Below, piece by piece: positions 2,417-64,000 of a stretch of 64,000 bases of DNA. Source of the stretch: Pagrus major (Eukaryota; Chordata; Actinopteri; Spariformes; Sparidae). The DNA lies in the NCBI RefSeq assembly GCF_040436345.1, contig NC_133219.1:19242958-19306957 (forward strand), given 5' to 3'. The notes under the pieces are model-generated. The model saw nothing but the letters and a program-made list of their open reading frames with translations. It did not search any database and was not told the DNA's origin. A program made the translations under genes and the position numbers. The first letter of the stretch is position 1. Each line of letters starts with the position of its first letter.

Positions 2417-4317
2417 ATGCAATCCGAGATGACATGCAACGTGAGCGAGATGTGGAGCCCCAAGATGCCCAACGGGCTGGACTTGGAGATTACCCACCAT
2501 CCCCTCACAATGAAGCGCGTGGTAAACCTGATCATCGCCATGGAGAGGTTAAAGGGCAACGTGTCGGAGTCACCACGGAGCACTGAGTTCACAGATGAAA
2601 ACCTGCTCAACATGTTGCTGGAGAGCGCAGTAGAAGGTAACCACAAAAAAAGCTACTGAATCGATCTATATATGTAAAAACAAAATGCTCTCCTCCCTTG
2701 GGAACTGTTGGAAGTGACTTACTGACAGGGAGTGAACAGTTTGCTTTCAGATCTTGTTGGCTTATCTTCAGATAGGGAGTGTTTATCATTTTTTGTAACT
2801 GGAAACCAGTCCAGCTAACTGTAACACCTGGGGTGTTAAAGATGTTGATAAACAGCACTAAATGATGTGTATGCATTCAAGACTCACTCGTGCAGGAAGA
2901 TACCAAGTCTGTGGCTGTAGTTGCAATTCCTGCTTGAAAGAAGATGAGAATCATAGCAAACACACAACTGATCAGGTGTGCTTCTTTTGCCCTCAGAGCG
3001 AATTGTGTTCGAGCGCACTGCTACACCAGCTCAGTACAAATACAAGTTCCAGAACCTGTACAGCGTGATGGACAGCGAGCAGAGGCACTTAGTCCGAGTA
3101 CCAAACAGCATGGAGCTCCACGCGGTGATGCTGCAGGGAGGCACTGGGAACTGTCAAGGTAATTTCATGTGACAGATCGGTTTTGAAAATCATCCTCTGT
3201 GTCATGGCAGATATTTTCATTGAGGGCTGACAGGTGTGATATTTTAGCTGAAGCTATTTAAAGGTATTATTTTACAACATTTTTCCACACCAAAATGAAG
3301 TGTTGCCTCCAGTACTGCATTCTTTAAGTCTGGATCGAGTTAACAAGCCAAAAATCCTCAGAAAACACTACTTTAATCTTTAACTAAGTGCTATCATTTT
3401 ATAAGCTTGTTAAATGTTTATTGTGTGTAAAAGCTTAGTTAGTAAAGTAACTGCTGACAATACATGTCAAATAAAGGTAGTGGAGTAAGAGGTACAATGG
3501 TTCCCTTATAAATGTAGTGGAATAGAAGTATAAATGACTGAATGAAAGAACAGGTACCTCAGATTTGTAATTAAGTACACCACTTGGCTAAGTGTACTTA
3601 GTTCTCTTTCATCACTGCACTAGGTCCTGATTTGATGACTTGGATACAAATTTTCTAACCTCGAGCGCATCTGTTTGACCTTGCTTTAGCTCTGTTGCAC
3701 AAATCCAAATGTTTCTTCAGCAAAATGCACATTTGTAGCATCTTTCTGAGACACTGTCTTACCTGTATCCTCTGTTCTCTCCTCAGTTCAACTGAACATG
3801 GCGACCTACCTGCCCCCTACACCCAGTGCTGAGGCCGTAACTGTGACTCTGTGCATCAAGGACACAAATCTTTACCTGTCTTGTCACAAGGAAGGTGACG
3901 AGCCAACCTTGCATCTGGAGGTAAAACTCTCACATAAATATTAAACTGAATCCCATGTGCGACATTTCTCGAAGTGAAACTGATTACCTTATCTACCTAT
4001 TAATTAACTTTTGATATGAGCTGTCAGGTGTGATAGTCAAACCTAATGACATTTATATTTTCACACCTCAGGCGGTGGACGACAAAGACAGTCTGTTGAG
4101 CATCACCCCGGGCAGCGACATGGTGCGATTTCTCTTCTACAAACATGTCACCGGGCTGAACAACAGCACTCTCGTGTCTGTTCCCTTCAGCAGCTGGTAC
4201 ATCAGCACAGCAGAGGAAAACAACAAGCCGGTAGAAATGTGCCAGGAGACCACCAGACGCCACCGGATCTTCAAATTCCTGCAACCAAATCCGGAAGTGG
4301 ACGGTGGAGAGTGTTAA
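2417..4317 (+). CDS. il1b: Interleukin-1 beta precursor
   Basis: This is the pro-inflammatory IL-1 cytokine, released from myeloid cells to act on the IL-1 receptor. The coding exons are 2417-2636, 2997-3158, 3787-3920 and 4072-4317, all with GT-AG borders and matching phases (1, 1, 0). They total 762 nt, or 253 aa, a normal teleost length. The start ATG lies 10 nt inside exon 2. The N-terminal pro-region has the conserved fish segment around [20 protein letters not shown] (residues about 27-46). The IL-1 family signature FSSWYIST is at residues 211-218, within the beta-trefoil domain. There is no signal peptide, as expected for IL-1. I see no convincing caspase-1 aspartate site in the pro-region, as is usual in fish. 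The gene lies just upstream of ckap2l, its neighbour in mammals too. I am very confident of the identity. Confidence 0.96.
3470..3615. repeat. Dispersed teleost repeat in il1b intron 3
   Basis: This stretch has the 'adding tags' of a common fish interspersed repeat: GTAGTGGAGTAAGAGGTACA, then GTGGAATAGAAGTATAAATG, then AATTAAGTACACCACTTG. The same vocabulary (AAGTACNNNTACTCAAGTACT, CCACTACATT) recurs near 27,410, 41,225 and 56,940, here in the opposite orientation. It is probably a decayed non-autonomous DNA transposon. Confidence 0.45.
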
Positions 4318-5268: not shown

Positions 5269-6641
5269 TTAAAGGTGCACTGTGTAGTTTTGGGGAAGAA
5301 ATTTTAATCAGAACCTGAATTGGCGAACCTCCGCTGCAGAGATAATGCAGAGTCTCTGTGTGAAAAGGGCTGATGAATGAGCCTATGGCCCACTGATGAA
5401 AGCCCTTGCATTTGCTGTATTACCAAAGATGTACACTGGGTGTCGGTGGAAAATATCACAAGCGGCACACAGTTAGTGACGCGTTCACCCAGCAGTGGTT
5501 GGTCGGCCAGAGAAAATAGGTGGTTTGCATCATAATGACTGGAATAAGCCTAATGTGAGAAAATGAATAAGCATATACTAGGGTTGGGCTGATGGCTGAC
5601 AGCCATGGACTACTAATCCCTAACCATCGTAACATCGTGATTTAAAAGACTCCCCACCAGAGAGCACAATTAAGAGGCGTGTCCCCTCAAAGTTGATGTA
5701 GGGCAAGAGTTGTGATATGTGGGGAGAGGATATGAAAAGAAGCATGTTGTTGCTCAGTGCACTAACATTACATCTCCATGTTTTATTTTCGTATTAAACT
5801 GGTTTGGCGAACCCAAAACACTCGGTTAAATTTGTGGCAGCAGTGTTTCTTTTCCTGTGGGCTGCTGTTTCTCTCAGTTGTGCCATTTTTATACACAAGT
5901 TTCTTAGGTTAGCTTCTTAGGGTAGTTGGCCAACGTTGTTTTATGAATATGAGGCTGAACAAAGCTACGTTACGGACATGTGGTGCAGAGATGAGGACAC
6001 TTTTAAACATGGCACAGGGATGTATGTTGGTGGTAACGTGAGACACTTTCCACTGCAGGGTGAGACAGTTGGAGATTCATGTCACAGCAACAGTGGGAAA
6101 CAACGGCAGCTACAGTGGTGAGCTAATATGCGTACAATATACAACAATGTCAGCGTCCGTCACAATGTTTCACTGTCGCCCAACCCTATGTACATAATGT
6201 TACTTTTATAGCAACCATTTTTTATTCAGTAAATAGTAAGTGTTGTAATGACTGTCTCAGAAGACATCATTCCCTTTTCGCTTTCATGTGGTGTTGTTAT
6301 GGAAGCGTGGAAAAGCTGCACAGCAGGCGACACTGGATCTCTGGGAAGCAGTGAGGCCCAAAAATACACCTGCAATTGCCGCTTCAGGAAATCTCCGAGA
6401 TTGCCACTTTGAAGGACAACACAATTTCATACTGTTTTACTTTGTTTATATTTGTCGGACCCTGCCACCTTTCTAGCTTCAAACAGTGTTCTGGGGACCT
6501 TATTATCCTCTGAGAACAGCTTGTTTATTCAGTTACGGAAAAGATAAATATTTCTGAGTTTGTATTATTACCTCATCACTATTGTAAATAAGTAATTCTG
6601 AGTTCAGAATTCTTCTCCAAAACTACATAGTGCCCCTTTAA
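5269..6641. mobile_element. Non-autonomous TIR DNA transposon (about 1.37 kb)
   Basis: The two ends are imperfect inverted repeats of about 35 bp. The left end reads TTAAAGGTGCACTGTGTAG and the right end, on the other strand, TTAAAGGGGCACTATGTAG; both continue into TTTTGGRGAAGAA. No transposase frame is visible inside. A shorter, inverted relative lies at 26,933-27,251 and shares the internal segment 6,400-6,535. The right end lies about 220 bp upstream of the first ckap2l CCAAT box, so the insertion abuts that promoter. The TAAAG terminus would suit the hAT superfamily, but I found no clear target duplication, so the class is uncertain. Confidence 0.7.
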
Positions 6642-10700: not shown

Positions 10701-13700
10701 CTTCTGTTGCTAACAAGGTGCGATCCAGCACCTCTTCATCAGTCTTTGTTTCCAAGAGGTCTTCCATGGCTCAGAGGAAAACATTACCTACCACTGCTCA
10801 AAACAACCCTGTCAATGAGAGAACAACTGTTTCTTCGAGCGCAAGAGCTGGGATTAAAGTTCAAGATCGGAACAAAACTAACTCTAAACTACTTTTGGGT
10901 AAACATTCTCAGCCATCTTGTAAGAGTCAGTTGTCAAGTGGACTGAAATCAACATCCAGCTCCTCCAAGTGCACAACAGCACCTATTAAGCCAGAGGAGA
11001 GAGTAGGGATGTCAAAAACTAATAAATCATCTGGGCAACCCATAGACAGGTCCACAAAGCAGAGGTCTGAGGGTGAAGGACAGAAAAATGGCCCACATTG
11101 CAATGTTGTCTCCCAAATGTCCTCGGGACCCAGCAAGCAGGTGCATTTCCAGAATGGTCGGCGGGGTTAGGCCAGCTGCTGTGGCTGAGCTGGGAGGGAA
11201 AACCAAGACATGTAAAGACACAGGTGGCAAGAGGGGACACGGCTCAGCAAATGCCCCTCAACCACAGACAGGTATAAAAAGAACAGGTGCTCCAGTGATG
11301 TCACAGACAGTGCCCCGGCCTACTAGGACTATCAGACTTACAGGCCAGGCCATGGACATCAAGACGACAAAGGTCCCAGTCAGGGTCATTCCCCAGACCG
11401 AGGGAAAGAAACTGACTGCTGCCCAGGAGGAAAGAATGTAAGTAGAACAGTACAACTCGCACTAAATGTAAAGCATGCAACTTTGATACCACCACCACCT
11501 TTGAATTTTCTTTACATTTCCAGCATCCATTGTGGTGAACCGTGTGTTACAGTTTGGCTTGTGACTTTAGCACTTACCAAAGAATTCTATTAGTATTATG
11601 TTCATGATTTCAACCACATTGTGAACCCATTAGCGGTATTTTGCATTTCGGTTGTGTTCGGTAGCTAGTGATGACTCTAGCCATTCTGCTGAAATAATAA
11701 TAGGGCTTTTTCATTGATGAATTTTGCTCATGTAGTATATAGACTGGGTATTCTTTGACTTTTACCATATGGGTTCAAAATAATACAGGAGTTTCTGTTA
11801 CAAAACAGAAAAGAACACTTAATTTTTAAAAGACTGAGGTAGGTCTGAAAAATTTATCAAAACCCAAATCAGAGGAACTGGAATATAAAGGTCAAATGTG
11901 TTACTCTTTATCATTACAATTGAAGACTTATGGTGCTATGGAGAAGCCTATAAATCGTATTTTCCAGGCGTAAGGTAACGTCATAGCAAAAATCACACTT
12001 CAAATCGAGAATCTGGATGATTACAAAGTTGCAAATAGCACTGGTGAAGAGGTGGAGGCAAACAATGAGACACCCTTTCTTTTTCCATTTCTCTTCTTGT
12101 GCACTTTTTCGCTTAGCTGAACAGCCAATCAACCAGTCACTGACAGTCTGGACATTGCGGCCTGGTGCGACGAAATAAAATTATATTTTTTAAGCAAAAA
12201 ATATCTAATAAAAGAATTGGAAGACAAGTATTTCATGCCAAGTTTTGATTAAAGTCGAAGACAAAGTGTAAAGACAGTGTATTATTCCCTGATAACATAA
12301 TTAAATTGGGAGTTGAAAAAGTTGAAACATGCAGGATAGTTTGTCTAATCGAATGTCAGGGCATATACGGACTATGCTTTCATGGTTTAATACCACTCGG
12401 GTATACCACAGGGACTGGTTTCACCCATAATCTACACCACAGTTTGTTGTGACAGATGGTTACTAATGATAATACAGAAATGACAAACAGGAAATTCAGG
12501 TCATGTTTTACAGTAGTTCAGTTTGGCTTTCAAACCTACCTCAACTGAATGAGTTTATTTTGCAATACTTATAAGTGTCCTTGTGCAGATGTCCCAATCA
12601 GTTTGTGCCCCGACCCAATCTGAGCTCATGATAATTCACATTTGGTTGATGGTGATTAAGATGCACACACATTAGTCTATGAAGCTGTGTAGCAGCAAAT
12701 TAAAGCAAAACATGGCACTCAAAAATATAAGTGATCCATATCAATATTCAAAATGTTCCTTTACAACATTTGAATCTCACATCTCTGCATGTGTTTGCTA
12801 AAAAGCACAGTAAAAACAACTGTTAGAACTGTTAAGTAGAAACCAAGGGTTATTCACCCACAATACAATGGAAAGGGAGTCAACCCCAGTTTTCATTTCC
12901 TCCCATTTCCCGCATTTCTCTGCTGTGCTGTCCAATAAAGTAATAAAAAAATAGTAAAATAGGTGTTAACATAAAACTACACTCTCTGCTCTATTATTTG
13001 GTGTCAAGGAGAAAACTACAAGAATGGCGGGAAGCCAAGGGCATTTCCTACAAGCGTCCTTCAATGCCAGTGAAACCTCAGGTTAGGCGCACTGTTGCCG
13101 TACCCCAGCCATTCTGGGTCACCATGAAGGATGAAGATGAGGCCCACTCCCTTATTGCTGCTGTGGACAGATCCCTGGCTGATTGCATGAAATTGCTTGG
13201 CGAGGTATATGCCGGGGAATGTTGGTTTTGTTTTTTTGCCTTTTTTGACTTGATGTCATTTCCCACTGGTTATTAAATTTTACTGAAGTCATTTGTTGTA
13301 CATAATTTGTTAGATGGGTGTTTACATGGAAATCGTTTTTTTTACGGGGAGGTGTACCCAAAAAGAAAATTTTTGTACAACATTGTTGCAATGAGACATG
13401 ATAATCATTTAAGTAAGTCATTTCAAAATTGAGTGAAAAGATTGCAATTTAGATCCTGGATCGTCAATGTGATTAAATACATCATGATATTATTTTTTGA
13501 CCAGATCACCCACCGCTAATGTTAAAGGTGTGTCAGGTTTACATGTGGTTCAACCATTCTATAAACTTTCGTTCTAGCATACTGATGTCCTTTCTTGCTG
13601 TCTACAAGTGTGTATGTATTGTCCCCACAGGGTTTCCCTCCAGAGCAGGTGAAGGAGGTTCTCTCAAGGCTGCCAGCAGTATCCCAGAAGTTTGCCAAAT

Positions 13701-16700
13701 ACTGGATCTGTCAGGCCCGCCTGATGGAGCAGGAGGGCAACCTGGATGTCCTGCCCATGTTTGAAGAGGCTGTTCGTGTTGTGTTGGAGGTAAGACATCT
13801 GTGATATTCAAACTTGAGACTTTTTATATTTATGTATGTATGTATTTATTTTTAAGTATCTTAGATCTAGCATTGTTTACATGCATGATTAGTTGCTTGC
13901 AGTCTACTTCTCCCCTGTCTTTGATGCTGATTGCTGCATATTTTGGTGTGTTAGTTGTCCAGTATTAAACCTCTGGGAGGAATGTACAGTACATTGCGTC
14001 AATGCTTGGCTATGTACGTGCATGTGCGTCCACAAGCTAAACAAAATTGACACTCAGTCATAAAAAAAATCTCCATATTTCTACTAATAGATGTTAAAAT
14101 CTCCACCTTTTAATTAGAGGACTCTAGTTGATTGGGGGCTCTTGTGGGTAAATTTACAAATCAGTGAGACCTGGCTTCAAGTAGTGTCACATTTACATTT
14201 GCCTTGGGATTGATGAATTTTCAGGAAATGTACTATGATCTGTAGGGGTTGGCAAAAAGACAAGCTGATGGGCATAAGTGAGCCGTCCGATGAATCACTT
14301 GGGCTGACATCATGTGTACTTCAGTTGAAAAATTAATTATCAGTAAAGGAATGACAAAGATATACTTGAGGTTATTTGGAAACAGTGACGCCGTTACACA
14401 CTTTGCACCTGGAAACTGTCCCGCTCAGTACATGACTTTGGCCACAAGTATCAGCCAGTATATCTCTTTTAGGTTTTGTAAACTCTGAAATATTTATCTG
14501 CCTAATAAGTCTAGTATCAGACAGCCAATTCATTAATATGTCTGGTGTATTGTTGTTGTTTGACATGTCACTGACAAGTCAGACGCGAGTCACTGAGCAT
14601 GGGAGTATATTTCATTCACTGGCTGAGCCACAAACACTCCCATCTGCTTATTTTCTCCATAAACAGCAACTCAGTGTAAGATTACATAAAAGAAAGGAGA
14701 ATATATCTATATTGCCCATTCCTAATGTCATGATATACATTATATCACTATCACAGTATAAAATGTCCATTTTAGAGGACTTGATTAACATCACTTACCT
14801 GTGATACTCGGTTCCAAGGCTGTTCTGTACTTCAGAGGTGCTTTTTGTTAATTGACCACAGACATACTGTAAGAGGCAATAGGAACCCATCCCAGGTTTT
14901 GTGTTCGTTAATGTGTGCGCACAATTATAGATTTGTGCATACGTGTGATTTTTGGAGTATCATAGTAACAAAAAACGGCATCACTATATCTATATGTAGG
15001 ATATGTAAAGATTGTAATATAATCTGTAAAAGTAATTTTGGTCATTGGTATCAACTACAGAAGTTTCATATAAGGACTTGCTTAATCAAATTGCTGGTCA
15101 AATAAAAAATCAGACTTTTGTTATTTAAGCAGTTGATTTATAATCATGAGTGACAGCATCCAACAAAAACATCCAATGTAGCTGTAAGCCATGAGCAGGT
15201 CAAGCACCAATACCAGATGTTGAATTACCTCTCAGTGACAGCTCAGTCTTTATCATCAGTGACAGGAAATGCCAGGAGTTTGACTGCAAAATGCCGGCCA
15301 GCTCTGATAGCTGACAGGGTCTGAATTTCATTGTGCCTCTGAGAGTCAGAGAGTACAGACAAAACTTATCTGAGTGGATCTTCTGCTGTGAGGAAAACAG
15401 TTACTAGTTAAAAAAAAAAACTAGTTAAAAAAGTTACTACAAGGGTTGAATTGACAAGATTGAATCTGTATGAGTGTATTGATATTTATATTTCCATTTA
15501 TGGATATTGACTACTTGTGCTGTTAAATTTCAGTTAAATAATAAGCATTTTTGTTATTATCAGGAGGCATTCAATACTGGTATCGTTATCAGAACAACCC
15601 TATCACAAAAGTTGGCTCCATGATCTGTACAGCATACTAAATTGTCAATCCCTCAACCCTTGATTTGGATGATAGTCATCCAATCCAATCCAACTTTATT
15701 TGTTAAGCACTTTAACACAACCAAATTTGACCAAAGTGCTGTACAGAAGAATAAAATTACATATAAAATACAAAAATAAATTAAAAGACAACAAAACATG
15801 AGTAAAAAATAATAAAAGCCACGCAATAGAAAGCAATGAAAACAAGGAGATAAAATTGACGTCTTACTGGGTGTCAAAGGCCAAGGAGAAGAGATGGGTT
15901 TTAAGAAGTGATTTAAAAACAGACAGAGAAGAGGCCTGTTTAACGTGCTGAGGCAGATCGTTCCATAATTTAGGAGCCAACACAGCAAAGGCACGGTCCC
16001 CTCTGAGCTTCCGCTTAGTTTTAGGCACATTCATGACCTCTTTTCCACTATGGAGACCTGGAAAGAGGACAGACTATACAACAACTATTTATCTTTTCAA
16101 TATAAGATTTCCAAGTTGTGGACAATAGCCCGTTTCTGTGACGTTTCATCACTCTGCAGAAATGTTTTATGAATAACTTCTCATATGTTAGAAGATGTGT
16201 ATTATCCAACCAAAAAAATGTCCTCCATTCTGCAGTATGAAACATGTCTGTTACAGTGACAGACAACGCGTCTTTTAGTATGGTGCAATCACAGCCCAAT
16301 GGAGCAATACATACCTGAGGCAAATTTGTTTTCGTGAGAGATCTTATCTTAACCTGACATTTCCCTGTAAGTCACTGTCTCATAATGAGATACAGGGAAA
16401 TGTCACGAAGTTAAGGTTCTTTGCAGTTATGACTGTTTAAAAGTTCAGGATTTTCATTTGTATGTAAAAGAAGCTAAATTTTAATCTATGAAATGATCAT
16501 TGAGCTATGCTGGTTGATATTGTCCCTGATAGCTTGATTTCCCCGACACACTCACAATAATAAATCTCTGTTTCTGTCCTTCTATTTCATTCTAGCCTGT
16601 GGACGAGCTGCGGACTGTGGTGTTTGAGATTCTGAAGAAAAAGGACGAGATCCAAGGTAGTAATCTTGCATGTCTTGTTTGTAACCACAGTGGTACAATG

Positions 16701-19700
16701 TACGAAGATATCATATACGGTGTTGCACACCTCAGTCACTCTGTTTGCTTTATACTGTATGCAGCTGATTATCATGGTCCTGTTCATGCAATAAATCGTG
16801 CTACATTTGTCTGCCCCCGTGCAGACATGGTAGCTATAAATTCAAAATAAAGTGCTCACTTTTTGTGACATAAAACAACAAAAACACAATGGGAGAAATC
16901 TTTGTTTTATGTATTTTGGTTTCATGTTTGCATCTCTTTGTTTTAGCATTAGTTAGATGCGATACTGTTAGGTATTTGTCTCCAATCAAATCTTTACTCA
17001 CAGTAATGGCAGCCCACATGCCTGAATTTGAAATGCCAAGTCAGTCTTTTCAGAATAAAACACAGTCAATTGCACAAACCACTATCACATAGTGTTAAAC
17101 TTGGCCAAATCTTTTTTTCTTTCTGCAGAAGAAAGCATGAGGGCTGCTTTTACCATCTCTGTCTGAGGATGATGGATGAGAGACCCTGTTTTCCCATTTA
17201 TAAGAAAAGTATTGACTAGTTATTATAAATGCCTCTTAGTTTACCACATAATTCAGCATCATGAACTACAGCCTCCAAAACTGTGAATAAACAACTCTAA
17301 AAAAGGTTGAACATCACTGTTTTGATTTACAGCTGGCAGCTTTACTGTTTTGATTCACTTTTAGTGCTCTACTCAGTGTAGTTTTCAGTATAAAGCTCTA
17401 AAAAACAACTGTACACTACACTGCTATCTGCAAATGGCAGAAAGGCAATGTTAGACACTGGCTGGTAAATATAGTTGAGCACTTTGCAGCTAAATACCCA
17501 AGATTTTATTCTCAGGAGTTGGAGACCAAGCCTAAAACAAGAGTGAATAAAGGACACCAAATGAATGCTAATGTTAATCGAAATCTGCAAGATTTGTAAA
17601 TAAGCCACTGTTTGCTAACATGTTCACCAAAACTACTTTGTCAATGTTGTGTTTACATCATTTTAACTTCTTATGTTTTTGTCAGCGTCTGATGAAAATG
17701 GAAAAGAGGATGACCAGGTTTCAGGAGGTGAAAGCACTCCTGAGAGTATCAACAATCCACTGATGACTCCTAAACCTGTCAGAGCCCTCATTTGTGGGGA
17801 GCAAGGAGAGTCATCTGTAGTAAAGTACAAGATCACAGCAACTCCTGGGTATGTTTGAGTCATTTTTACAACTTCCAGCAATATATTTAATGTTTTTCAT
17901 GCCAGCCAGTTTGTAAGAGTAAAACACATTTGTTAGTGATCCAGAGCTGAATGAAAAAAAACTGGACACACCTGATAATCCCTTTAGTGTCATGTGAGTT
18001 TGACCGTGGGATCATTTGTGTTTATCCACCCTTAAAAAGCCAGATTACTTTACATTAACCATAAACTAGTGAGCAATGGCACCCCGACATTTTGTCTGGC
18101 TGGTACGCATTTTGACATTTTGTACAAAGTACAAAGTACACTGGTGCACTTTGTCACTCTAAATTATGCAAAAAGCTTGTGGCGCTATGTGAATTTGACC
18201 AAATGTGCAGCAGTAATTGTGCCTAATAGGAAGAGGCAGTGGCAATATGCCAATAAGCCTGTAGCATGCCGAAAACCAAAAGAAGAGGAGGAGCTCGACC
18301 AGTCATAGCGCCGGATTTGTTGTCATGCTACAGTTGGAAACCAATATTATAATCACTTCTGCAACATTATTTAATAGAAAAATGTCCCCGAATCAAGCAA
18401 AGTGATGGCCCTGTAAAATTCAGATGGATTCTGATTAGCTGTCACTGTTCATCAAATTGCTCTGAAGTGAACCCAATAATATCGTTCGCCACTGTCGATT
18501 TTGTTATTGTTCTTAGTGTGGATGGCCCATAAATGCGTAATATAATTTCAAGAGACTGGCTGGGCTCTGCCAATTGACAGCAACATTCTTGAACCTGATT
18601 TGTCTCATTCTCCCTCCTCATTCTGGCAGGCTGTGAAGACTAAAGGTAAACAGACTGGTGTGTGTGGGAAGAGTTAAGTTCAACGGGTCCTGGGGCTAAA
18701 TTATAACTATTAAAAATCCTGATGTTGGTGTAAGCTCTGTTAGCAGCTCTTATATTGGTACATTTTAAATTTTTGTGGGCTGTCACCTCTGACGCAGACG
18801 CCTCTGCCCACCTGTGTCGAGTCGAGGAGACGCTTCCCTCCTAGTAACCCCTGAGGACTGTACGTGTAATAAAACCTGCTTATGTAAAAAGGCAGTACTT
18901 GCATACACATGTAGAGAAGCAATATTTCAATCTGCTCTGTCAGCATAGCACGTCAGCAAAACATTTATTTATTGATTTATTCTTTTTAAAGTATTTTTTT
19001 GGCCTTATTGATAAAACAGCTCAAAGTAGACAGGAAACAGGATGAGAGAGAGGGGGGGAGTGACATGCAGCAAAGAGCCCCAGGCCGGGACTTGAACCCG
19101 GGGCCGCTGCAGCGAGGCCAATGAACTGAGCTAAACGGTGCCCCAGGAAAACATTTATTTTAACACCATTAGACATAGATTTATTATTGAGTTTATCCAG
19201 TGACTTTACTGTTGTAAATATTACTGTTGCTACTCTAGAAACAACTTTTGTGGTTCACATTACAGTACATAAACACCTGAAAATGGAGGTCGTCTCTGTG
19301 GATCACTGCTGCAGTCAGGTTGATAAACAGTAGTAAAGATAATTCCACTGTTTAATTCCAAAAGTTAAAAAGTATCTACATTTTAAAAAAAAAAGTTTAA
19401 CCTACTTGTTTTTCTGGTGACCGCTAGAGAGTGTACCAACGTTTAACCGACTAGACAACTAAGCACGCACAACCGAAGTAAAACGTGACGGTGATGATGG
19501 GCAACTTGTTTTGTCAAGAAGAGCCTCTCAAGCCCCTCATAACAGTATAAGTGAATGACGCTTGTATACAGTTGTCCTGAGAGTCAACACACAAAAGACT
19601 GAAATGGCCGGATATGTCTGTCCTGTTGAGAAGGTCCAGACATTGACCTGAACTAGCTGTAGTCACTGGGTCAGGTCATAATGACTAGAAAGTCATTATT

Positions 19701-20070
19701 TCTCAGAAGCTGGATAATTGAAAATTGTCACTGATTTTTTTCCCCTTTATTTTCTTTCAGCGGCCTTTCAAGTCAACAGCAGGAACCGGCACGGGTCAAC
19801 GGCCAGGAGGTTCGCTTCTTCACTCCAGTTAGACGCTCAGTGCGCATCAAGAGAGCCTCACTGCGATACCCTGTGTCCCTCCAGGACCATGATCTCTGCG
19901 TGGCCTCCTACAATGACCTGATCTCCGAAGAGGATAAAGAGAGAAGTGAAGAACAGAAGGATGGGGAAAACAGCCCATCTGCTATCAACACGCCGATGTA
20001 CATCTACAGAGAGAACGAAGCACTTAAAGACAAAGTGTTCGTCAAGCTAGTCTGCGATGAAGGCATTTAG
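7098..20070 (+). CDS. ckap2l: Cytoskeleton-associated protein 2-like (one frameshift in the big exon)
   Basis: This is a microtubule-associated protein of the mitotic spindle, needed for spindle organisation in dividing progenitors. The exons are 7098-7137, 9758-9824, 9911-9965, 10139-11437, 13009-13204, 13631-13789, 16596-16656, 17686-17848 and 19761-20070. All have GT-AG borders and matching phases. The N-terminal motif KLMEYLAAKGKLKQPNPK is typical of CKAP2 and CKAP2L. A KEN box (residues 59-61) at the start of exon 4 fits APC/C-driven destruction. The middle is basic and rich in Ser, Thr and Lys. The C-terminus, from KLQEWREAKGISYKRP to the VRFFTPVRRSVRI segment, is the conserved CKAP2 domain. 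Exon lengths sum to 2350 nt, one more than a multiple of three. The exon 4 frame stops at 11,168-11,170, while the family-conserved frame resumes just after, so one extra base lies near 11,160. Without it the protein would be about 782 aa, close to the family. Confidence 0.9.
7737..7830 (-). repeat. ATCA microsatellite with LINE-type 3' end
   Basis: About ten ATCA units are followed by a stretch reading CTTCATTTATATAGCACCTTTCA and CTTTACAAG on this strand. Read on the minus strand this is the common 3' end of fish L2-like LINEs and related SINEs (GTGCTATATAAAT, then a tetranucleotide tail). It lies in ckap2l intron 1. The AT-rich DNA after it, to about 8,330, may belong to the same insertion but shows no coding trace. 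Confidence 0.6.
8391..9115 (+). mobile_element. Penelope-like retroelement fragment with GIY-YIG endonuclease
   Basis: An open segment at 8,535-8,774 contains DLYIGETKQPLHKRMAQHRR, the YIG half of a GIY-YIG endonuclease domain in the form found at the C-terminus of Penelope-like elements. The Arg and His that follow fit the family. After a stop codon the frame resumes in the conserved PLE C-terminus (LSPTYNAVLSSLPR). The reverse transcriptase domain is missing. The fragment is bounded by an inverted repeat of about 70 bp (8,391-8,460 against 9,047-9,115). Penelope elements often carry such a pseudo-LTR in inverted order at a truncated 5' end. It sits in ckap2l intron 1 and is inactive. Confidence 0.82.
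15655..16050 (-). mobile_element. L2-type LINE 3' fragment in ckap2l intron 6
   Basis: On the minus strand the sequence encodes the C-terminal end of an L2/CR1-type ORF2. It includes KRKLRGDRAFAVLAPKLWND, then a segment ending in LLKTHLFSLAF. The 3' UTR has AAAGTGCTTAACAAATAAAG and a TTGGAT tail at 15,675-15,690. The 5' part, with the reverse transcriptase and endonuclease, is absent, as is usual for 5'-truncated copies. Confidence 0.8.
17339..17625. repeat. Dispersed repeat family A, copy 1
   Basis: This stretch in ckap2l intron 7 shares an ordered series of words with segments at 34,835-35,270 and 40,055-40,210. The words include AAAGCTCTAAAAA, CTGGCTGGTRAAYATAG, CTCAGGAGTYGG, GGAGACCAA and GAGTGAATA. 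It is non-coding and probably a decayed non-autonomous DNA transposon. Confidence 0.55.
18971..19147 (-). mobile_element. tRNA-derived SINE with intact target-site duplication
   Basis: On the minus strand the head reads like a tRNA gene, with an A box TAGCTCAGTTCATTGG (19,118-19,133) and a B box GGTTCAAGTCC (19,088-19,098). A teleost SINE body follows (GCATGTCACTCCCCC, then CATCCTGTTTCCTGTC). A perfect 13-bp direct repeat, AAAACATTTATTT, flanks it at 18,958-18,970 and 19,148-19,160. This is the target duplication expected from LINE-driven retroposition. It lies in the last ckap2l intron. The unbroken duplication suggests a fairly recent insertion. Confidence 0.85.
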
Positions 20071-20355: not shown

Positions 20356-21365
20356 TGTACTTTTAATCTTTATCAGGCATAGGACTTTGTTTCCTGCACT
20401 GGGCTGCACATCTTTTAGTCAAGTCAAGTGTCTTATCAAACTGGTAATTTCAAACCATTGTGCTACAGAAAATACGAGGCTTATTTTGTAAGCATCTAAC
20501 TGAAACTATGCATATTGCCATGTGCATGAAACCTCAGCAGAAGGGTTTTCACCACACCTGTAAATTGTGTGCGTCACTAAGTGGCAAAACATGGGGAAAA
20601 AAAACTGAGTTGCATCAGTCAAAATCAGCTCCTGACTGTAATCCATTTAATACTCTGCCCACTGTTGTTTGTTTTAAAACATGATAAACATGCAGTTTAG
20701 CAGGTTTGTTTTTAAAGCTTAGCATTATGACATTTTTCTGATTTGAGACACTATACAGTAGATACTGCACGAGTAGAAGTACTCGTCTTCTGACATCTTG
20801 CAGGTGTCACCACCTCTGTGTTTTAAATTATCAGGCCATTCTGTCTAAGCTGCTAAAATATTAAGGACACCAGATCTAGGTCAAGATTACGTTTAAATGT
20901 TCCTCATACCGACTCTGAACTGGTTTCTTTAACTGCACTTACCTCACTGAAATGAAATGCAAAACAAATTTGACACTCATGAAAGGTGCTCTGTGTGACA
21001 ACTTCTTGCATTTTACATGTGTTAATCACGGATAAGTTAAGTGTTCAGCGGATTGTAACATGACGTGAAAAATGAGACCTTCCTCACCTCTCACGGTTGC
21101 CTATACGAGTCTGTGGACGATGTGTTTAAGTTATTTAACGCTGCTGGACTGTGGATTTCTTCATGAAGAATATGGGTTGAGCTTTCCTCGACAGTCTAAA
21201 AAAAATTGACTTTATGCATGTTCACGAGTGCCTTGTCTGAGATGGTAGCTAACGTTAGTTTAGAAATAGTCGGCTTACACAAACTAACGACCGACATCCA
21301 GCACATTTTTAAAGGACAGACTTTACATTTTTAATTTAGAACTGAAAAAGTCAAGGCAGTCCTTC
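20356..21365. other. Intergenic DNA after ckap2l
   Basis: I see no gene or clear repeat ends here. The last 250 bases include a GCTAACGTTAGTTTAG stretch of the kind seen in teleost TIR elements, but I cannot define an element. Confidence 0.4.
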
Positions 21366-22672
21366 TCAGACATTATTATGTGTCCTGTTTGCTACTGTCG
21401 ACAGGCTAACAAACCCTCCTGTGCCAGTAGCCTCTGAACATCTACTGTATCTACCAGGGCCTGTAATGAATTTGCATCCTTCTTCACTGCCAAAATTCAG
21501 AAAATTTGACAAGTGGTCAGTGCCACCGTACCAGGTACAGGAGGTATGTTGTCCATGTGTCAACCTAAAACCTAAAACCAACTCCAATACCATTACACAA
21601 TTATATCCAATGAATGACAAAAACCTACAAGAGATAATAAAGCATTTGAAATCTTCCTCCTGCTGCCTTGATATTTTACCAGCAGGGTTCTTCAAAAAAG
21701 TTTCAGACTGCATGACTCCAGATCTGCTCCAGGTTGTCAACATGTCTCTTCTCTTAGGTGTCTTCCCCCAAGCCATGAAAACTGCAGTTACTAAACCACT
21801 CCTGAAGAAGAACAATCTAGACACATCAGTAATGAATAATTATAGGCCCATATCAAACCTCTCAATTTTAAGTAAAATCACTGAAAAAGCTGTTTGTCAA
21901 CAGCTGAACAATTACCTAATAATTAATGGCTGTTTTGACGTCTTCCAATCATGATTTCGACCACATCACAGCACTGAGACCGCTCTAGTCAAGGTCCTCA
22001 ATGGCATTCATGTAAACACAGACAGTGGCAAAATTTCACTGGATCTCAGTGCTGCGTTTGACACAGTCGACCACAATATACTACTGGACCAACTGGAAAA
22101 CTTGGTGGGACTCTCTGGTACAGCACTAAATTGATATAAATCCTATCTAAATGATAGAGACTACTTTGTGTCTATAGGTAATTACACATCTCAGTGGATG
22201 AAAATGACAAGCGGAGTACCACAGGGCTCCATTCTGGGGCCTCTACTATTCAACATTTACATGCTTCCTCGAGCTCAGATAATGGAAAACAACAAAATAT
22301 GTTACCATAGTTATGCAGATGACACACACATTTACATAACCATATCACCAGGGGACTATAATCCCATACAAACGCTGAGTAGATGCGTTGAACTTAACCA
22401 AAGATAAAACTGAAATTATTGTTTTGAGAGCCAAGGAAGAACGACTAACAGTCTTTGCTCAGCTTCAATCTGTAATGTTGAAAACTACAAACCAAGCTAG
22501 AAACCTCGGTGTAATCATGGACTCAAGTCATTCTGTAACTCTTGCCAACAATAAAGAAATGAGAGGGAATTTTGTTATAAGAGCCAAAAGGAAAATGTCT
22601 CCTATGATTACCAGGACAGTGCAATGCCTGTTGCAGACTACATATTTTTGTCATTTAATAAGATGATGACAT
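21366..22672 (+). mobile_element. L2-type LINE, reverse transcriptase region, degraded
   Basis: Three open pieces read as consecutive parts of an L2/CR1-clade reverse transcriptase. They show NNYRPISNLSILSKITEK (RT block 1), then FRPHHSTETALVKVLNG, LDLSAAFDTVDHNILL (first catalytic Asp) and [28 protein letters not shown] (catalytic DD) and NLGVIMDSS follow. In-frame stops at 21,952-21,954 and about 22,131, plus a frame change near 22,390, interrupt it. The endonuclease and 5' end are missing. The copy is dead. It lies between ckap2l and the IL-1-like gene. Confidence 0.88.
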
Positions 22673-25520: not shown

Positions 25521-26370
25521 ACCTTCCATACATACAGTACATACATTACAAGCAATACAAAACAGGAACTCATGAACTGTTGTTCGCTGTCTTGATGACA
25601 ACACATAGATAAACCAGTCATTAATAGAATAGAGTGACAATACACTGTCATTAATACTTAGTAAAAACGCCATAATTAATTAATTAATTAAAATAAATAA
25701 ATAGTTGGTCTACCCCCGCCTTGATTGGTTTGCTCGTGTGTGTTACTGTCACTGAAATCAGTGATGACGGGAGGGCGGCGTGCAATGACGCAAAAAATAA
25801 AACCGATGAATCCCCTCAAATGAAACAACACTAAAGTAACGAGCCTGTCTATGCAAGTACAGTAATGAAGTATTTGTACTGCTATTATAATCCCATAGTT
25901 TTGTTAATAATATGTAATCTGCTGTGTGGATTGCTAACAGAACAAGATGAGATACACAGTGCACAGTCCCCCCCGGAGCCCCCTTGTGTGTTAATCCGGC
26001 CCTGTCTGTACTACATCCAAAGCACATAAACAGCCACTTTACACTTTAACTCTGGTGTTTACAAGGCTGCAGACTTACAGCTGCAACCAGGAGAGATATG
26101 AAGAGTAAAAGAAGAACACAAGAGAAAAGAGGGAAAGCATGGACTGGGGGAAGTTGACTCAGCTCAGCTGTGGCATTTCCTTGCATTGGCACACATCATC
26201 GTTTCTAAGTTAAATCACCCAGCTGTTGTTGAATATGATGAACCACGATCGTTATTTACCAGGATTTCATTCCGAGAATACACAATGCGGTGTTGGTCCT
26301 TCCCATTACTGTCACGACATGCTGGCACAGACTCAACCGCCTGTGAAGCGCTTGCGTCACCCAGCAGGTC
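25521..26370. other. Upstream flank of the IL-1-like gene
   Basis: A short TAAT run lies at 25,675-25,700. Otherwise I see no gene. The final 250 bases probably hold the promoter-proximal region of the IL-1-like gene. Confidence 0.4.
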
Positions 26371-26500
26371 CGTGCGTTTATAAGAGCCTCCGGTGTGCAG
26401 TCTTCAGAGCAAGCCGCGCTGTCACGCACCCGCAGCCGCCTCCACCAAGTACACACTCTCCAAGACGCACTTAGAGCGCATCAAGACTTCAGCACAGACG
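26371..26500 (+). promoter_or_regulatory. TATA box and non-coding exon 1 of the IL-1-like gene
   Basis: TATAAG at 26,379-26,384 predicts a start near 26,408. The presumed non-coding first exon ends at 26,500 in a strong ACG|GTGAGT donor. This layout (TATA box, short non-coding exon, ATG in exon 2) is the same as in il1b upstream. Confidence 0.55.
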
Positions 26501-26932
26501 GTGAGTGACTATTGCATTATTTCCAAAACATGCACATTAATCTTGCATTGCTTCTCCCTCTGAGGCTTAACGCGGTGTGGGTTCACCTGTAACCTGCAGT
26601 GAGGTGAAGTTAGTGCACGACTTTACTGTCTGCCACTTCAACCTGCTGCTTAAATAGACATATAGACAATAGTAACTCGAATCTGCAGGAGAGGTTTCAG
26701 TGAGGATTTTGGTTTGTAGTGCTGAAATAGAAAGCTGGGGAGATAATTGCTCATTATGATGCTGTCCTGTGTGGCAGTGTTGGCAGATGAGAAGCTGCCA
26801 GACACAATAAACAAGCCAGTGTTGAAGGACGTGAACCAGCTATTTGGCACTGCAGCATTAGACAGGTCTTCTCCAACTGAATTTAGACAGTGAGTGGAGA
26901 GAAATATTAGACTACGTTACTTACAGAGGCAC

Positions 26933-27251
26933 TATTTAGTTTTGAAGAAGAAAATTCACACTCAGATTTTTGTGTGTGTTTTTTTTTCATGAATGAATGA
27001 ACAAGCTGTTCTCAGAGGAAAGTAAGGTCCCAGAACACTGTCTGAAGCTTGAAAGGTGGCAGGGTCCGCCACATATAAACAAAGTAAAACAGTATGAAAT
27101 TGTGTTGTCCTTTGAGGTCAGTTTGTTTATTCAGTTGTACAAACAAGGAGAGTATGTTTATTTAGTTTGTTTAGGAAAAAAAAAATCAGTAATGAAGATC
27201 TTTCTCTTCTGATTAAAATTTCTTCCTGAAAACTACATAGTGCTCCTTTAA
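26933..27251. mobile_element. MITE, deleted relative of the 5.3-kb TIR element
   Basis: The right end, read on the minus strand, is CTTAAAGGAGCACTATGTAG. The left end is AGAGGCACTATTTAGTTTTG. The interior (about 26,998-27,115) matches 6,406-6,530 of the larger element on the opposite strand, including GCTGTTCTCAGAGGA and CAGTATGAAATTGTGTTGTC. It is thus an internally deleted, inverted family member, in intron 1 of the IL-1-like gene. Confidence 0.75.
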
Positions 27252-28093
27252 GCAAAAGCAACACAGTGTTAAAACACTCCAATTAAAGATATTAGGCAAC
27301 TTAAAAGTACAGATTAGGCTACCAAGGTAATCATTACGCAGTATGTAAGTTATTATAGCCTATATAATTGCAGTGAAATGTAATTAAGGACACTTACACA
27401 ACTAGCCTACTGTGCTTAGGTACAAACTTGAGGTACTTTACTTGATTATTTCATGACATCCTATAGTTAATGTACTACACTTCAGTTGTAAATGTTTGTT
27501 GATAAAAGTTCCCAGTCAACCAGGTCATGGTAACTCTTAGAGTTATAAATATTCTTCTTTTTACTCCACTGCAATCATCTGACAGCTACAGGTACTTGTT
27601 ACTTAAATCTTTAACAAAACATATGAAAAAGTTTTTCAAATGAGCTCCACCATGAGAGTAAAATGCTGCTCAAACATCAATTCATGAGTAATAATAATCT
27701 TGTGATAGACTAGATACAGTATATATGAAGTGAATCATTAAATATATACACACATGGGGACTTTTTCTCTGCTTTCAGTACTTAACACAACATTTTCAGT
27801 GCAGTACTTTTACTTGCAACACTTTTTTTTTACAGTGTAGTTTTGGTACCTTCATGTGTAACTAGAATGTTAGTGCTGAAGATGGTTGACGTAACTACTT
27901 TGTGGCTAATAGCTAATCTACAGTACAAGAATGAGAAGTAAGCTAATCACATAGTTGAAAAGTAAAGGGGAAAGCTGCAAATACAAATACAGCAAAGACT
28001 TGTAGGAGTGTTTTTAAGTACTGCACATTGTAATTCTGGTTTATTAAAGGTGTTTCTTTCCCCTCATGTCAGCACGCCACTGAAGAAAACAGC

Positions 28094-29920
28094 ATGGTCC
28101 GGGCTTTTCTGCAATGTGAAGGGAAATATTTGACAGTCAAGAGGTTTAAAGGAAAACTAGAACTGTGTGCTGTTGAGGTGCAAAACGGTACCATGAAGAA
28201 AAGACGTACTAATGGTAAGCTATTTGCTAATGACCACAACTATTTCAAAATAATATATAATAATTGTTGTGAAAAGGTACAAATTTGATGCCCCCTTGAT
28301 CTGTGTAGTACACTCCATCCTGACTGTGCCATTTGAAGTCTTTATATGGGGCATTTGCAGTGTGATCTGATTTTAATCTGATTTGGATTATTATGGCAAA
28401 TTCATAGACTCAGACACAAAGTAAAAATATGTTGTCTTGTTTCTGTCCTTAGGATTGAATTATACTGTGGACATATGCGAACAAGAAAACAAGATGGCTT
28501 TCTGTTTCTGGTATAAACATCAACAATACCTCCCAAAGGTGGATGGAGACACCCTGGAGGTAAATATAAACATATATACAGTACATACATAAACAGTACA
28601 CACACACACACACATGCACGTGGACACGCTCTCTCCCTCCATCTCTGCCCACAGCTGATTTCTGCAGCATACAACAAATGAAAAGAAACAAATGAAATGA
28701 CAGAAAAAGTAACTGAAAAACTGATATTATTGAATGTGCACATTCCTTGCTTTTCTCTGCTAAATGTGGGTTTTGTGTGTTCACAGTTGGAGAAGGTGGC
28801 TGGTGATGCTGTCGATGGCAGCTCAGATAATGCACCTGATATACCTGATAGTTCCTGGTTCGAGAAGGAACCACGTGGACGCTCTGGATTTTACACCTTG
28901 AAAACTGTGGCTGAACCCAAGCAATACATCGCACCGAATCATATAGGCAGCCAATGGAAATTCAAGCTGTCTCAAAACGGTTGTGAGGGCATTGTGGTCA
29001 AACAGAAAACCGTAAATGTACGTTTTCATTATTCTTATTTGTAATGTACTTTGTAATGTTTTACGTTGCATCAACTTCTACCTGTTCTGAAATGTTTCCT
29101 CGTAACAGACACGACTAAAAGTCTACACTGTGGGCGGCAGATTCAATCTTCACCATGGTCACCATCTTAGTTTGCCGTGTTAATATGCTAACATATGCTA
29201 AATAGCACAAAACAAAAAGCACAACTGAAGCTGATGGGAATGCCATTCATTTTGCATGTGCTTGATTATAAACCAATTTATTGGACGAGTTGAAATGTAG
29301 ACCAGATGATGCTTCTAAATAAAAAAGTCATAATAAAAGTGATGACAGTTCAATCCAGAGGGCAGCATAAATCTAGGCCAAATTTCATGGCAATCCATCC
29401 AACAGCTCTCAAGATATACCACTCAAAACCGCATGCAAACCTCATGCTGGTGCTAGAAGAAGGGTCAGTAGGATTCATCTTCAGGGAACCACGAAAGTCT
29501 GTTCCAAATTCTGTGCATATACGTCCCGTAGACATTGAGATATTTTACTGGATAAGAGAAAACTTTGACCAACTGGTGGAGTCAGAAGAAAAGTCAAGGA
29601 GTCACCAAAGTCAGCCTTCAGCTGTCTGTAAGAACTTTTCCTGAATTATTTCTGAACACATTGCCTCTGAATCTCTCAGTTTGTCACCATGTTGGTTATC
29701 AATGAGAGCATCATCTGCACACCCTCTATATGCATGAACGATCCAAAAGTTTAAAGTGACACAGAGCCAATTCTCAGTGAAGCAGTTCTCTCTGATCTAG
29801 CCTCTCTTCCTTCCTTCCACTCTGTCTCATTCATCCAATCATTATCTGCATTTTTGTTTCTAGTTATTGGTCCTGACCTGTCTTCTCTGTGTTGTTTTTT
29901 TCCCTCAGGCATCCAAGTGA
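28094..29920 (+). CDS. Putative IL-1-family cytokine (beta-trefoil, no pro-domain)
   Basis: The coding exons are 28094-28214, 28453-28559 and 28787 to about 29011, then a short last exon 29909-29920 that adds Ala-Ser-Lys and a stop. This gives about 154 aa. If the last splice is not used, exon 4 reads through to a stop at 29,042-29,044 and gives 161 aa. Intron phases (1, then 0) match the two trefoil introns of il1b exactly. The conserved C-terminal IL-1 region is recognisable at residues about 99-139 (SSWFEKEPRGRSGFYTL, then YIAPN and WKFKLSQ), aligning with the il1b segment SSWYIST. There is no signal peptide and no pro-region, like mammalian IL-36 and IL-1Ra-type members. The position beside ckap2l and il1b supports membership of the IL-1 cluster. 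It could correspond to the teleost novel IL-1 family member, but I cannot confirm that from memory. Confidence 0.62.
29130..29625. repeat. Common teleost interspersed repeat in the 3' part of the IL-1-like gene
   Basis: The sequence has the familiar words of a widespread fish repeat: CACCATGGTCACCATCTTAG, then AGCTGATGGGAATGCCATTC, AAATTTCATGGCAATCCATC, GTCAGTAGGATTCATC and AGTCACCAAAGTCAG. These words explain the 112-codon open frame at 29,306-29,644, which is therefore not a gene. It lies in the proposed last intron of the IL-1-like gene and lengthens it. Confidence 0.7.
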
Positions 29921-30930
29921 GCATAACCTTTTACGGCGTAACTCAAGATTTCCATGCTTCCTCTGCACCCTGACAGTTCGCTCCAGCTCTGGAATGAGCA
30001 AGAAGTGAAGTTATTCAGATCATTTTTCTCTCTTGGGTGGCTACGTGTCTTCTTGTTAAACTTCATCAAATGGGTACTCTTGCAGTTAAAGTTGGGGGAC
30101 TTGGAAAAGACAGATGAAAAGGGAATGGTCAGCATTGAAGCAGGAGAAAAAATACCAACACTCCCCTGGTCCTCTGAAGTCTCAGTCCGGCCCACTAGCT
30201 GCACGGCTAACTGAGCTAACTAGCTTGTAGTTAACTCAGTTGACGTTGTATATTTGTAATTGTTAACTTGACCACAGAATTAGAACATGTACTTTTTACA
30301 TGTATGCGATGACGGGTTTATTATACTGCGTTGCTGCTTGACGAGTAAACTGATCCTCATGACGGTAGAGTTTCCCTCTTGATGTGAAAATGTTCCTCAA
30401 ATGCTTTTTATGTGTTGGTATTAATTGGGTTTTTTTCTTATTGTTGTGACACATTTGTATGACTATTGTATGTTTGTGAGGCTGGTTTGACCAAAAGATA
30501 TTGGTGAAGTAGAGCTCCACATCAATCTCTACTGTAACAGGCTGTTTGGGGTTGTTTAACACTCCAATATTCGTGATCCACTACACTGATTGGCTGCCAG
30601 TAATGCTGACCTAGCTTGATCAAGACTTACTTGTGTACAAGCCTGATGCAGACCTTGACATGTATTCATTCATGTATTCAAATGTATATCATTCATGTAT
30701 TACATCATTAATGTATTCGAATGTATATCATTCATGTATTACATCATTCATATATTCGAATGTATATCATTCATGTATTACATCGTTCATGTATTCAAAT
30801 GTATATTATTCATGTATTACATCATTCATGTATTCGATTATGCAGTTATGTTTTGTTTTTATCACTTGTGTGTCATTTTCATGCTGTAAATATAAACACA
30901 TTTTGTAATAAACAGCTGTATATCCTGAAT
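29921..30930 (+). other. Probable 3' UTR of the IL-1-like gene
   Basis: This runs from the putative last stop to AATAAA at 30,907-30,912. It contains a copy of a dispersed repeat (30,150-30,235, sharing ACCAACACT and CTGCACGGCTAACTGAGCTA with 48,770-48,835) and a 39-bp minisatellite. Few ATTTA motifs occur, in contrast to il1b. Confidence 0.4.
30665..30838. repeat. 39-bp minisatellite
   Basis: The word AATGTATAT recurs at 30,681, 30,720, 30,759 and 30,798, an exact period of 39 bp, giving about 4.4 copies. Each unit includes CATTCATGTATTACATC. As 39 is divisible by three, the array makes an open frame with a 13-residue repeat, but this is an effect of the repeat and not a protein gene. Confidence 0.92.
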
Positions 30931-45929: not shown

Positions 45930-47532
45930 CAGTGGTGGCCAAAATTATTAGAACACTTGGCATATTTAAGTTTAAGTTTGTTGAATTGTCCATTAAAATA
46001 CCCATAAAACAAATGAAATATCTACAAAGTCATCATGATGCTCTATATACCATAGAATAGAGCCATCATAAGGAGATTTAGGTCATTTTCCTTACAAAAA
46101 ACAAGCTAGGCCTATTTCAATCATGTTCCTTCACAGAAGAGGCCAAACTACTTGTGTAATCATTGTCAGGTGTGATCGTGGTTGAATTGATGGTGATGCA
46201 AGAGTCTTAGGACACAGCTGTGTGATTCTTTTGAACATACAAGGCCTATCCTGCTCATTAAGTGATTGGTAACTTCAGGGTTTTGTCACTGAGGCCACAC
46301 CACCAACTGGTATAAATTCAAAGCCTCTAGAAGTAGTCTTGAAGCACATGTTGCTCTTTGAACATGGCTAAGGTGAAGAAGGAGCTAACGAGTGAGCAAC
46401 GAGTTCGAATAAAGGCCCTTTTTGATGCTGGCTGGAGTTACTGCCGCATAGCCAAGGACTTGAGATGCAGTCCAAGCACTGTAAAGTACACTTTAGACCA
46501 CCATGATGCCACCGATTCACACCAGAACCTAAAGGGGTAGAAAAAAAAACTTTCAGACAGACACGTGAAGCATCTCAAAATTCTCAGTCTTAAGAACCGA
46601 AGAAAGACCTCACAAGAACTGCGTGACGAGATCAACACCACAATGACTAATGGTGCACCAGTGTCTAACTGTGCATTGGAAACTGGGAGAAGAAGGACTT
46701 GTTGGCAGAATAGCAGCAAAGACACCATTACTGAAAGAGAAAAATGGAGTGAAACACCTGAAATTTGCAAAAGAACACAAGAAATGGACAGAGGAAGATT
46801 AGTATAAAGTGTTGTGGACTGATGAGTCCAAGTTTGAACAGTTTGGCAACAAGCGAAGAGTGTATGTACGACGGAGGGAGGGGGAGAGATATAAAAATGA
46901 GTGTCTCTTGCCAACAGTTAAACACGGAGGGGGTAGTATTATGGTGTGGGTGCCATTTCAGCCTCTGGAACAGGTGACTTGGTGAAAATTGATGGCATCA
47001 TGGATAAGAAAGTATACCACAACATTCTGGTGAGGCACGGAGTACCATCTGGGAGTCGTCTTATTGGGCCTGGATTTATTTTCCAAGAGGACAAAGACCC
47101 AAGCATTCTTCTGACTATTGCCAGGAACTAAATGTGACAGAAGGAATCTGCTGGAACATTGAAAATGATGGACTGGCCCCTCGAAGTCTGGACCTCAACC
47201 CCATCGAACAAATTTGGGGCGAGTTGGAAAATAAACTGGCCAGATCTATTGTACATTCAAACAAAAGCCTTTGGCTTGAGTTGCAGAAGGCATGGGATAA
47301 CATTAGTGTTGAAGTTCTCAGGAAATATATTGACACTATGCCAGAGAGATGTGTTGCTGTAATTCCTGCAAAAGGTGGACATACCAAATATTAAAGTTAA
47401 AAGTGGATAAAAACAGTAGGACTCACTTCATCTGATATTTGTTGTGCTCAGAGCAACCATCTGCATGTTTCATGAACATTATGAAATGAAATCATGTTTT
47501 GGAGGCAAAAAAAAAAATTTTGGCCACCACTG
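45930..47532 (+). mobile_element. Tc1-like DNA transposon, near full length, inactivated
   Basis: Inverted termini CAGTGGTGGCCAAAATT mark both ends, each flanked by TA (45,928-45,929 and 47,533-47,534), the Tc1/mariner target duplication. At 1,603 bp it is of normal length. The transposase starts at ATG 46,364 with a helix-turn-helix region (SEQRVRIKALFDAGWSYCRI). The frame then breaks at a stop (46,538-46,540) and several shifts. The three catalytic acidic positions can still be located: the Asp in the WTDES-like block near 46,821, the Asp in the QEDKDP block near 47,095, and the Glu in LNPIEQIW near 47,205. The element is dead unless supplied with transposase. Confidence 0.92.
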
Positions 47533-48610: not shown

Positions 48611-48840
48611 TTTAAAGGTGCAATATGTCAGAATTATGGTTGAAACCACTTAAAACTTAATTAAAATGATCAGCGAAGGCTATGACGTCCATGTATTGTG
48701 TGGCAAAGCATACTTAGCATACTTACCAGCTAGCTCCAAATCTCCTGTGCTAGCAGTCTTAAAACCAACACTTCCGTGGTGCTCCAAGCTCCCAGTTTGG
48801 TCTGCCAGCTGCACGGCTAACTGAGCTAACTAGCTTGATT
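48611..48840. repeat. Dispersed repeat family B, copy 3
   Basis: It begins TTTAAAGGTGCAATATGTCA and includes GACGTCCATGTATTGTGTGG, ACCAACACTTCCGTGGTGCT and CTGCACGGCTAACTGAGCTA. The last two words are shared with 30,150-30,235. Confidence 0.6.
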
Positions 48841-63737: not shown

Positions 63738-64000
63738 ACGCCATGTTGACCAGAAATTTCGGGGCTTGGGCTTTGATAGGACCAGGAGTTCACATTTGTT
63801 CTTTTTTATTAATATTATAGCAAAAGAAGAGTGATTGTTAGGCTTTGTGTTGTAATATTTTCCCATAACTAGAAAAAAGTACAGAAAATCCCTTAACGAC
63901 AAAAAAAACCCTTTGTATGTTATTGTAGTACGTTTGACTGGGGAGTTCATGATTATTTCAAATGGTGACAGTGAATTTGTTTGATTGGCCTGGGACTCTG
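63738..64000 (+). other. h2az2: h2az2 3' UTR (cut by the window end)
   Basis: The stop at 63,735-63,737 is followed by AT-rich sequence. I see no histone stem-loop element and no AATAAA before the window ends. Confidence 0.6.

Follow-up and report, generated by a model that had tools for sequence, protein, structure and literature searches.

Beyond ckap2l, on the side away from il1b, the genome of Pagrus major likely carries a single-copy, fast-evolving gene whose predicted product is a leaderless protein of 161 aa built on the exon plan of an IL-1 trefoil. This protein is too unlike the known IL-1 proteins for kinship to be established from sequence alone, and it is kept out of the IL-1 family here because the profile test returned no match. 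The likeliest single reading, which is held tentatively, is a strongly diverged, pro-domain-less IL-1 relative. The window referred to throughout is the entire stretch of 64,000 nt that was analyzed (GCF_040436345.1, NC_133219.1:19,242,958-19,306,957, forward strand).

Locus and gene model

The gene order in the window is il1b (2.4-4.3 kb), CKAP2_C exons up to 20.1 kb and the candidate gene from 26.2 kb (Table 1). Linkage to il1b and ckap2l, one criterion for the IL-1 family, is thus found for the candidate, and the CKAP2_C matches lie between the two genes as had originally been described. Going by exon count and neighbours, the il1b of the window is type II, while type I il1b appears to reside on a separate contig of the same genome (C12; type called by eye from an extra exon). 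The available portions of the literature list DAPK1, ATP8B5A, CNNM4B, CKAP2L, PURB, and H2AFVA as neighbours of fish il1b type II, with which the presence of ckap2l and purb around il1b agrees (PMC7144542). Exons of a histone H2A gene (PF00125; H2A.Z-like by eye) are located at ~63 kb. The same portions of text describe a single IL-1 ligand at the il1b type II locus and name no second one (PMC7144542); likewise, among the matches listed from open-licence PMC, none describes a second IL-1 ligand adjoining fish ckap2l in its title or abstract opening.

Three coding segments (28094-28214, 28453-28559, and 28787-29044) splice via GT-AG into a single frame. Both joins of the original prediction, 28214/28453 and 28559/28787, keep this frame, and the predicted length of about 154 aa is corrected to 161 aa, counted from the ATG at 28094 up to the stop codon, which ends at 29044. 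The ATG has a good Kozak context by eye. The candidate introns are of phases 1 then 0, as are the last two introns of il1b (3158/3787 and 3920/4072), which bears out the predicted match in phase to the il1b trefoil introns. A signal peptide is not apparent by eye, and the three-exon model has no pro-domain, in line with the pro-region reported missing at the outset. Candidate and il1b type II thus share a linked locus, the strand, a presumed non-coding first exon and the phases between their last three exons; they differ in that the candidate has no pro-domain exon and a middle exon of 107 nt instead of 134 nt (27 nt shorter).

Table 1. Features of the candidate gene and its neighbours (positions within the window).
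Feature	Position	Strand	Basis and remarks
il1b (comparator), coding exons	2417-2636, 2997-3158, 3787-3920, 4072-4317	+	PF00340, E 2.1e-18
ckap2l, exons of C-terminal half	12950-20064	+	PF15297 (CKAP2_C) at 12950-13270 and 19738-20064
CpG-rich stretch with TATA box (26379) and presumed non-coding exon 1 ending 26500	26200-26500	+	CpG count, splice score; TATA box by eye; donor after 26500 6.4 bits, next acceptor 28073; putative transcription start
Candidate exon 2	28073-28214	+	short 5' UTR, ATG 28094, first 40 codons, phase 1 end; acceptor (28073) 6.6 bits, donor 5.0 bits
Candidate exon 3	28453-28559	+	107 nt, phase 1 to phase 0; acceptor 7.1 bits, donor 3.7 bits
Candidate exon 4, coding part	28787-29044	+	85 codons and stop; acceptor 1.5 bits
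Presumed 3' UTR, repeat-bearing	29045-30930	+	AATAAA 30907 by eye; putative transcript end
purb	60173-61111	opposite to il1b, ckap2l, and candidate	PF04845

The promoter-like stretch at 26.2-26.5 kb contains as many as 15 CpG in 200 bp, at an o/e of 0.92 and compared to a mean of 3.4 for the window; among the best 25 sliding windows, similar clusters occur only at purb (~60.1-61.1 kb), at 49.3 kb and at 6.85 kb, a position 5' of ckap2l by eye. A genome search found 26140-26520 to be single copy. The combination of TATA box and donor was dropped as a gene marker, as 69 such TATA-like sites occur within the window. No likeness of this stretch to the il1b promoter was detected (136/300 shuffles equal or better), and comparison of exon DNA between candidate and il1b gave 12/300, 18/300, and 225/300 shuffles equal or better for the three exons. 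The presumed 3' UTR holds one of two repeat copies (30151-30227; the other at 48761-48837) and a 39-nt tandem array (30666-30835). LINE remains are also found near the candidate gene.

Evidence for a coding gene

Since the exons had originally been picked by eye, three-exon chains of the same plan were ranked by splice strength alone (a minimum of 34 open codons in the first piece, ~28-50 codons in the middle exon and 65-110 to a stop in the last; introns of 65-1200 bases; both strands). The candidate chain is the 12th of 55,687 in the window, preceded by ten chains of the il1b locus and one histone H2A chain. When all nine phase patterns on both strands are considered under the size limits given for exons and introns, at least 17.25 bits are reached at only three loci of the window, namely il1b, ~63 kb and the candidate. 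The other two match Pfam families (il1b PF00340, H2A PF00125), although the first piece of the ~63 kb chain is out of the histone frame at a locus which carries H2A exons. As background served 226,715 bp elsewhere in the same genome (20 pieces and three stretches), where two loci exceed 17.25 bits. A protein kinase gene (PF00069) accounts for the first; the second, the L026 chain, appears to be a false frame, with a non-coding-like codon score (-0.172). When the background was dinucleotide-shuffled 12 times (113,812 chains), the top score was 14.0, compared to 17.3 for the candidate.

Searching the genome with the DNA of 28050-29120 showed it to be single copy except for a short simple-repeat stretch directly 3' of exon 3, which rules out repeat-derived exons, and a search at the protein level found no paralogue of the candidate in the genome. 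Due to the splice ranking, the CpG-rich single-copy TATA stretch and the single-copy exons, the candidate is probably a real coding gene.

It is unlikely that no protein gene exists here and that open frames and good splice sites came together by chance in a repeat-rich stretch, perhaps one with a promoter-bearing non-coding transcript. Some good chains are to be expected among the 658,804 of the candidate's plan in the 227 kb background, as the L026 chain illustrates, and the LINE remains, repeat copies and tandem array close by would suit such an origin, as would a synonymous codon use near the non-coding level. The latter is weak in the candidate (p 0.157; true exon joins 0 to 0.003), and whole-codon use gave p 0.0165 (true joins 0/2000) with a zebrafish codon table; an earlier codon test trained on 1390 codons of the window and C12 gave p 0.079 and, for synonymous use, p 0.322. 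On the other hand, the candidate resembles real proteins in its amino-acid composition (p 0.003, judged by 2000 joins of open pieces of non-coding DNA; il1b 0.01 and 0.012), the exons and the promoter-like stretch are single copy, and the other two window loci of equal splice strength are genes.

Likeness to the IL-1 family

The candidate protein matches no family in Pfam at E<=10, whereas il1b hits PF00340 in the same type of search (2.1e-18), and none in NCBIfam at E 10. A PDB sequence search returned two weak, irrelevant matches, neither of them IL-1, while il1b found human IL-1 beta at ~2e-14. As a control, nine of ten human IL-1 members were assigned to PF00340 by Pfam, and IL-33 was assigned to its own family instead. 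PF00340 searched against the genome at E 10 retrieved just the two il1b genes and no IL-18 or nIL-1F. The profile search which the original prediction proposed as its check therefore gave no IL-1 match, one half of what it had named as speaking against itself.

A profile of 13 IL-1 members (11 human and two fish) scored the candidate at -0.9 bits (726/3000 shuffles equal or better), and a human-only profile at -1.4 bits (1213/3000). When each member was left out in turn, 12 of the 13 beat all 500 shuffles; the exception was IL-33 (5.3 bits, 1/500 equal or better). IL-33, when left out, is hence nearly as hard to detect by the IL-1 profile as the candidate, which in contrast lacks a Pfam family of its own, and a direct comparison of candidate and IL-33 revealed no clear likeness. 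Since these tests barely pick up even IL-33, which is a true member with the trefoil, the missing profile match is compatible with kinship.

The "recognisable IL-1 C-terminal block" first claimed for exon 4 is not upheld, given the empty Pfam search and a rank of 74th/282 on the IL-1 block profile (exons 2 and 3 ranked 126th/1349 and 812th/1761 among window pieces). The claim may have been prompted by the by-eye likeness of TLKTVAEPKQYIAPN in exon 4 to TLESVAFPDWFIASS of IL-36, which is non-significant by local hhalign. Among comparisons of exon 4 with the 13 single members, two or three, according to the scoring used, gave p<=0.05 uncorrected for the number of tests, the lowest being 0.005 for IL-36A. 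The IL-1 signature as printed in the available part of PMC7144542 ([FC]-x-S-... -T-x(7)-[LIVM]) is absent, the F/C, S, and T positions being L, T, and P by eye. Across its six reading frames, the window contains 12 matches to a relaxed core, among them VAEPKQYIA of the candidate, and two to a longer relaxed form, again including that of the candidate. An internal three-fold repeat spotted by eye in the candidate was non-significant at 5/5 window lengths (99/200 shuffles at length 6).

Local hhalign of the candidate against the profile also remained at chance (15.2; shuffles: mean 12.4, sd 2.3, max 25.1). Aligned end to end, the candidate scored 8.9, reached by 21/800 shuffles, and IL-33, when left out, scored 8.3, reached by 16/300 of its own shuffles; removal of IL-33 from the profile lowered the candidate's score to 6.7. 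In this alignment, which is blind to introns, both introns fall within ~2-3 residues of the IL-1 introns by eye. The candidate thus shows the pair of trefoil introns, phase 1 then phase 0 and conserved in position, that serves as a criterion for the family, a finding prone to selection as the exons were chosen by the reader. Anchored on the introns, the candidate reached z 2.0 (4/200 shuffles equal or better), compared to 3.3 for IL-33, 7.8 for IL-18 and 12 and more for the other known members when left out.

Intron-anchored IL-1-profile scores as good were found in 1190/52,701 non-il1b chains of the window, at 58/133 3' frames, and in 4811/658,804 background chains, with 173/448 3' frames holding one; among the 243 background chains with a splice score of at least 8, 5.8% score as high as the candidate. 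The exon-by-exon sum against the neighbouring il1b is equalled by 101/52,701 window and 289/658,804 background chains; it is driven by the first exon and equalled at 14/448 background loci. With type I il1b as the comparator, 38,002/52,701 window chains are as good, and there is no likeness. An apparent resemblance between exon 3 and il1b (z 3.6) was dropped, for the score of 21 against the matching il1b exon is seen in 29% of background chains. In a three-way alignment, the raw identity between candidate and il1b is 27%, and their likeness by profile is non-significant.

Taken as a member of the IL-1 cluster, as originally suggested, the candidate retains the gene, the exon plan and the place, but not the membership, with no IL-1 match in Pfam, NCBIfam or PDB and the profiles at or near chance. 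That it is a real coding gene of an orphan or unrelated family, its intron phases and proximity to il1b being coincidental, is a serious possibility, if a somewhat doubtful one: the gene-structure evidence is good while Pfam, profile and local hhalign tests are at chance, yet a weak, repeated, in-order likeness to IL-1 along the protein and the exon plan speak against it. Fish are known to carry nIL-1F and type I il1b (PMC7144542, as far as its available text goes), and an already described ligand of this kind would offer a further reading, which is very improbable in view of exon count and place. According to the accessible parts of the respective reports, nIL-1F (nIL-1F/nIL-1Fm) has a pre-domain (PMC4929537) and seven coding exons (PMC7144542) and, being the antagonist of fish, occupies another locus (PMC4090809). 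The candidate differs from these proposed fish IL-1 ligands in having three coding exons, no pre-domain and another place, and the suggested identity with the "described teleost novel IL-1 family member" is rejected. Type I il1b is likewise rejected, given its apparent location on contig C12.

Proposed function and meaning

The mammalian proteins IL-1Ra, IL-36Ra, and IL-38 comprise 152-155 aa and have no pro-domain. The candidate, at 161 aa, is close in size and likewise pro-domain-less, whereas its profile match to them is non-significant. If it is the strongly diverged IL-1 relative tentatively preferred here, the protein would fold as a beta-trefoil in no need of cleavage, be released without a signal peptide and bind an IL-1-type receptor; having neither signal peptide nor pro-domain, it would resemble an IL-1Ra/IL-36-like ligand independent of caspase cleavage. 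The middle exon of mammals encodes the beta4-beta5 region, which lies close to the accessory receptor and is short in IL-1Ra. The 27-nt-shorter middle exon of the candidate would trim this region, so that an antagonist or weak ligand would be more likely than an agonist, and an antagonist is, by this analogy, the likelier guess for an IL-1 relative.

Gene duplication starting with il1b is the proposed origin of the IL-1 cluster in mammals (PMC5861070), and fish have been reported to be without orthologues of other mammalian IL-1 members (PMC4929537). A more specific and rather improbable proposal sees in the candidate an additional ligand for the IL-1 receptor in ray-finned fish, one that arose without a pro-domain at the il1b-ckap2l locus and acts as an antagonist evolved apart from mammalian IL-1Ra. 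Should the candidate prove an unrelated orphan gene, the finding would be local and modest. If it is instead a second, pro-domain-less IL-1 ligand, fish would possess a small cluster of IL-1 genes at a locus for which the accessible text of PMC7144542 has one ligand, and the growth of the cluster would have occurred independently in fish. The gene might then help to explain how IL-1 beta is kept in check in fish, a question of importance to aquaculture immunology.

Repeats and transposon remains

The interval between ckap2l and the candidate gene holds fragmented LINE reverse transcriptase remains, of which 21349-22128 are spanned by a PF00078 match below the cut-off, while the extension to 22404 was judged by eye. 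A weak, sub-cut-off match to DDE_3 at 47011-47391 marks what by eye is a Tc1-like transposase remnant. In the candidate gene, the presumed first intron contains one member of an inverted repeat pair, and a tandem array ends a little upstream of the AATAAA.

Features located in the window and, for the second il1b, on contig C12 of the same genome
Feature	Position	Strand	Basis or details
LINE reverse transcriptase remains	21349-22404		PF00078, by eye
Inverted repeat pair	6412-6495 and 27029-27112		95%
Tandem array	30666-30835		39-nt unit, 4.4 copies, 93% matches
Second il1b (L006)	C12:25770323-25779000	minus	PF00340
Histone H2A.Z-like gene, exons	about 62900-63800	+	PF00125, reading frames

Second il1b and the histone neighbour

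The last exon of the second Pagrus major il1b matches PF00340 at 36.6 bits, and the gene, assigned to type I by eye, shares 33% identity with the il1b of the window in a three-way alignment. H2AFVA is given as an il1b-locus neighbour in other fish (PMC7144542), and the H2A.Z-like gene is this neighbour.
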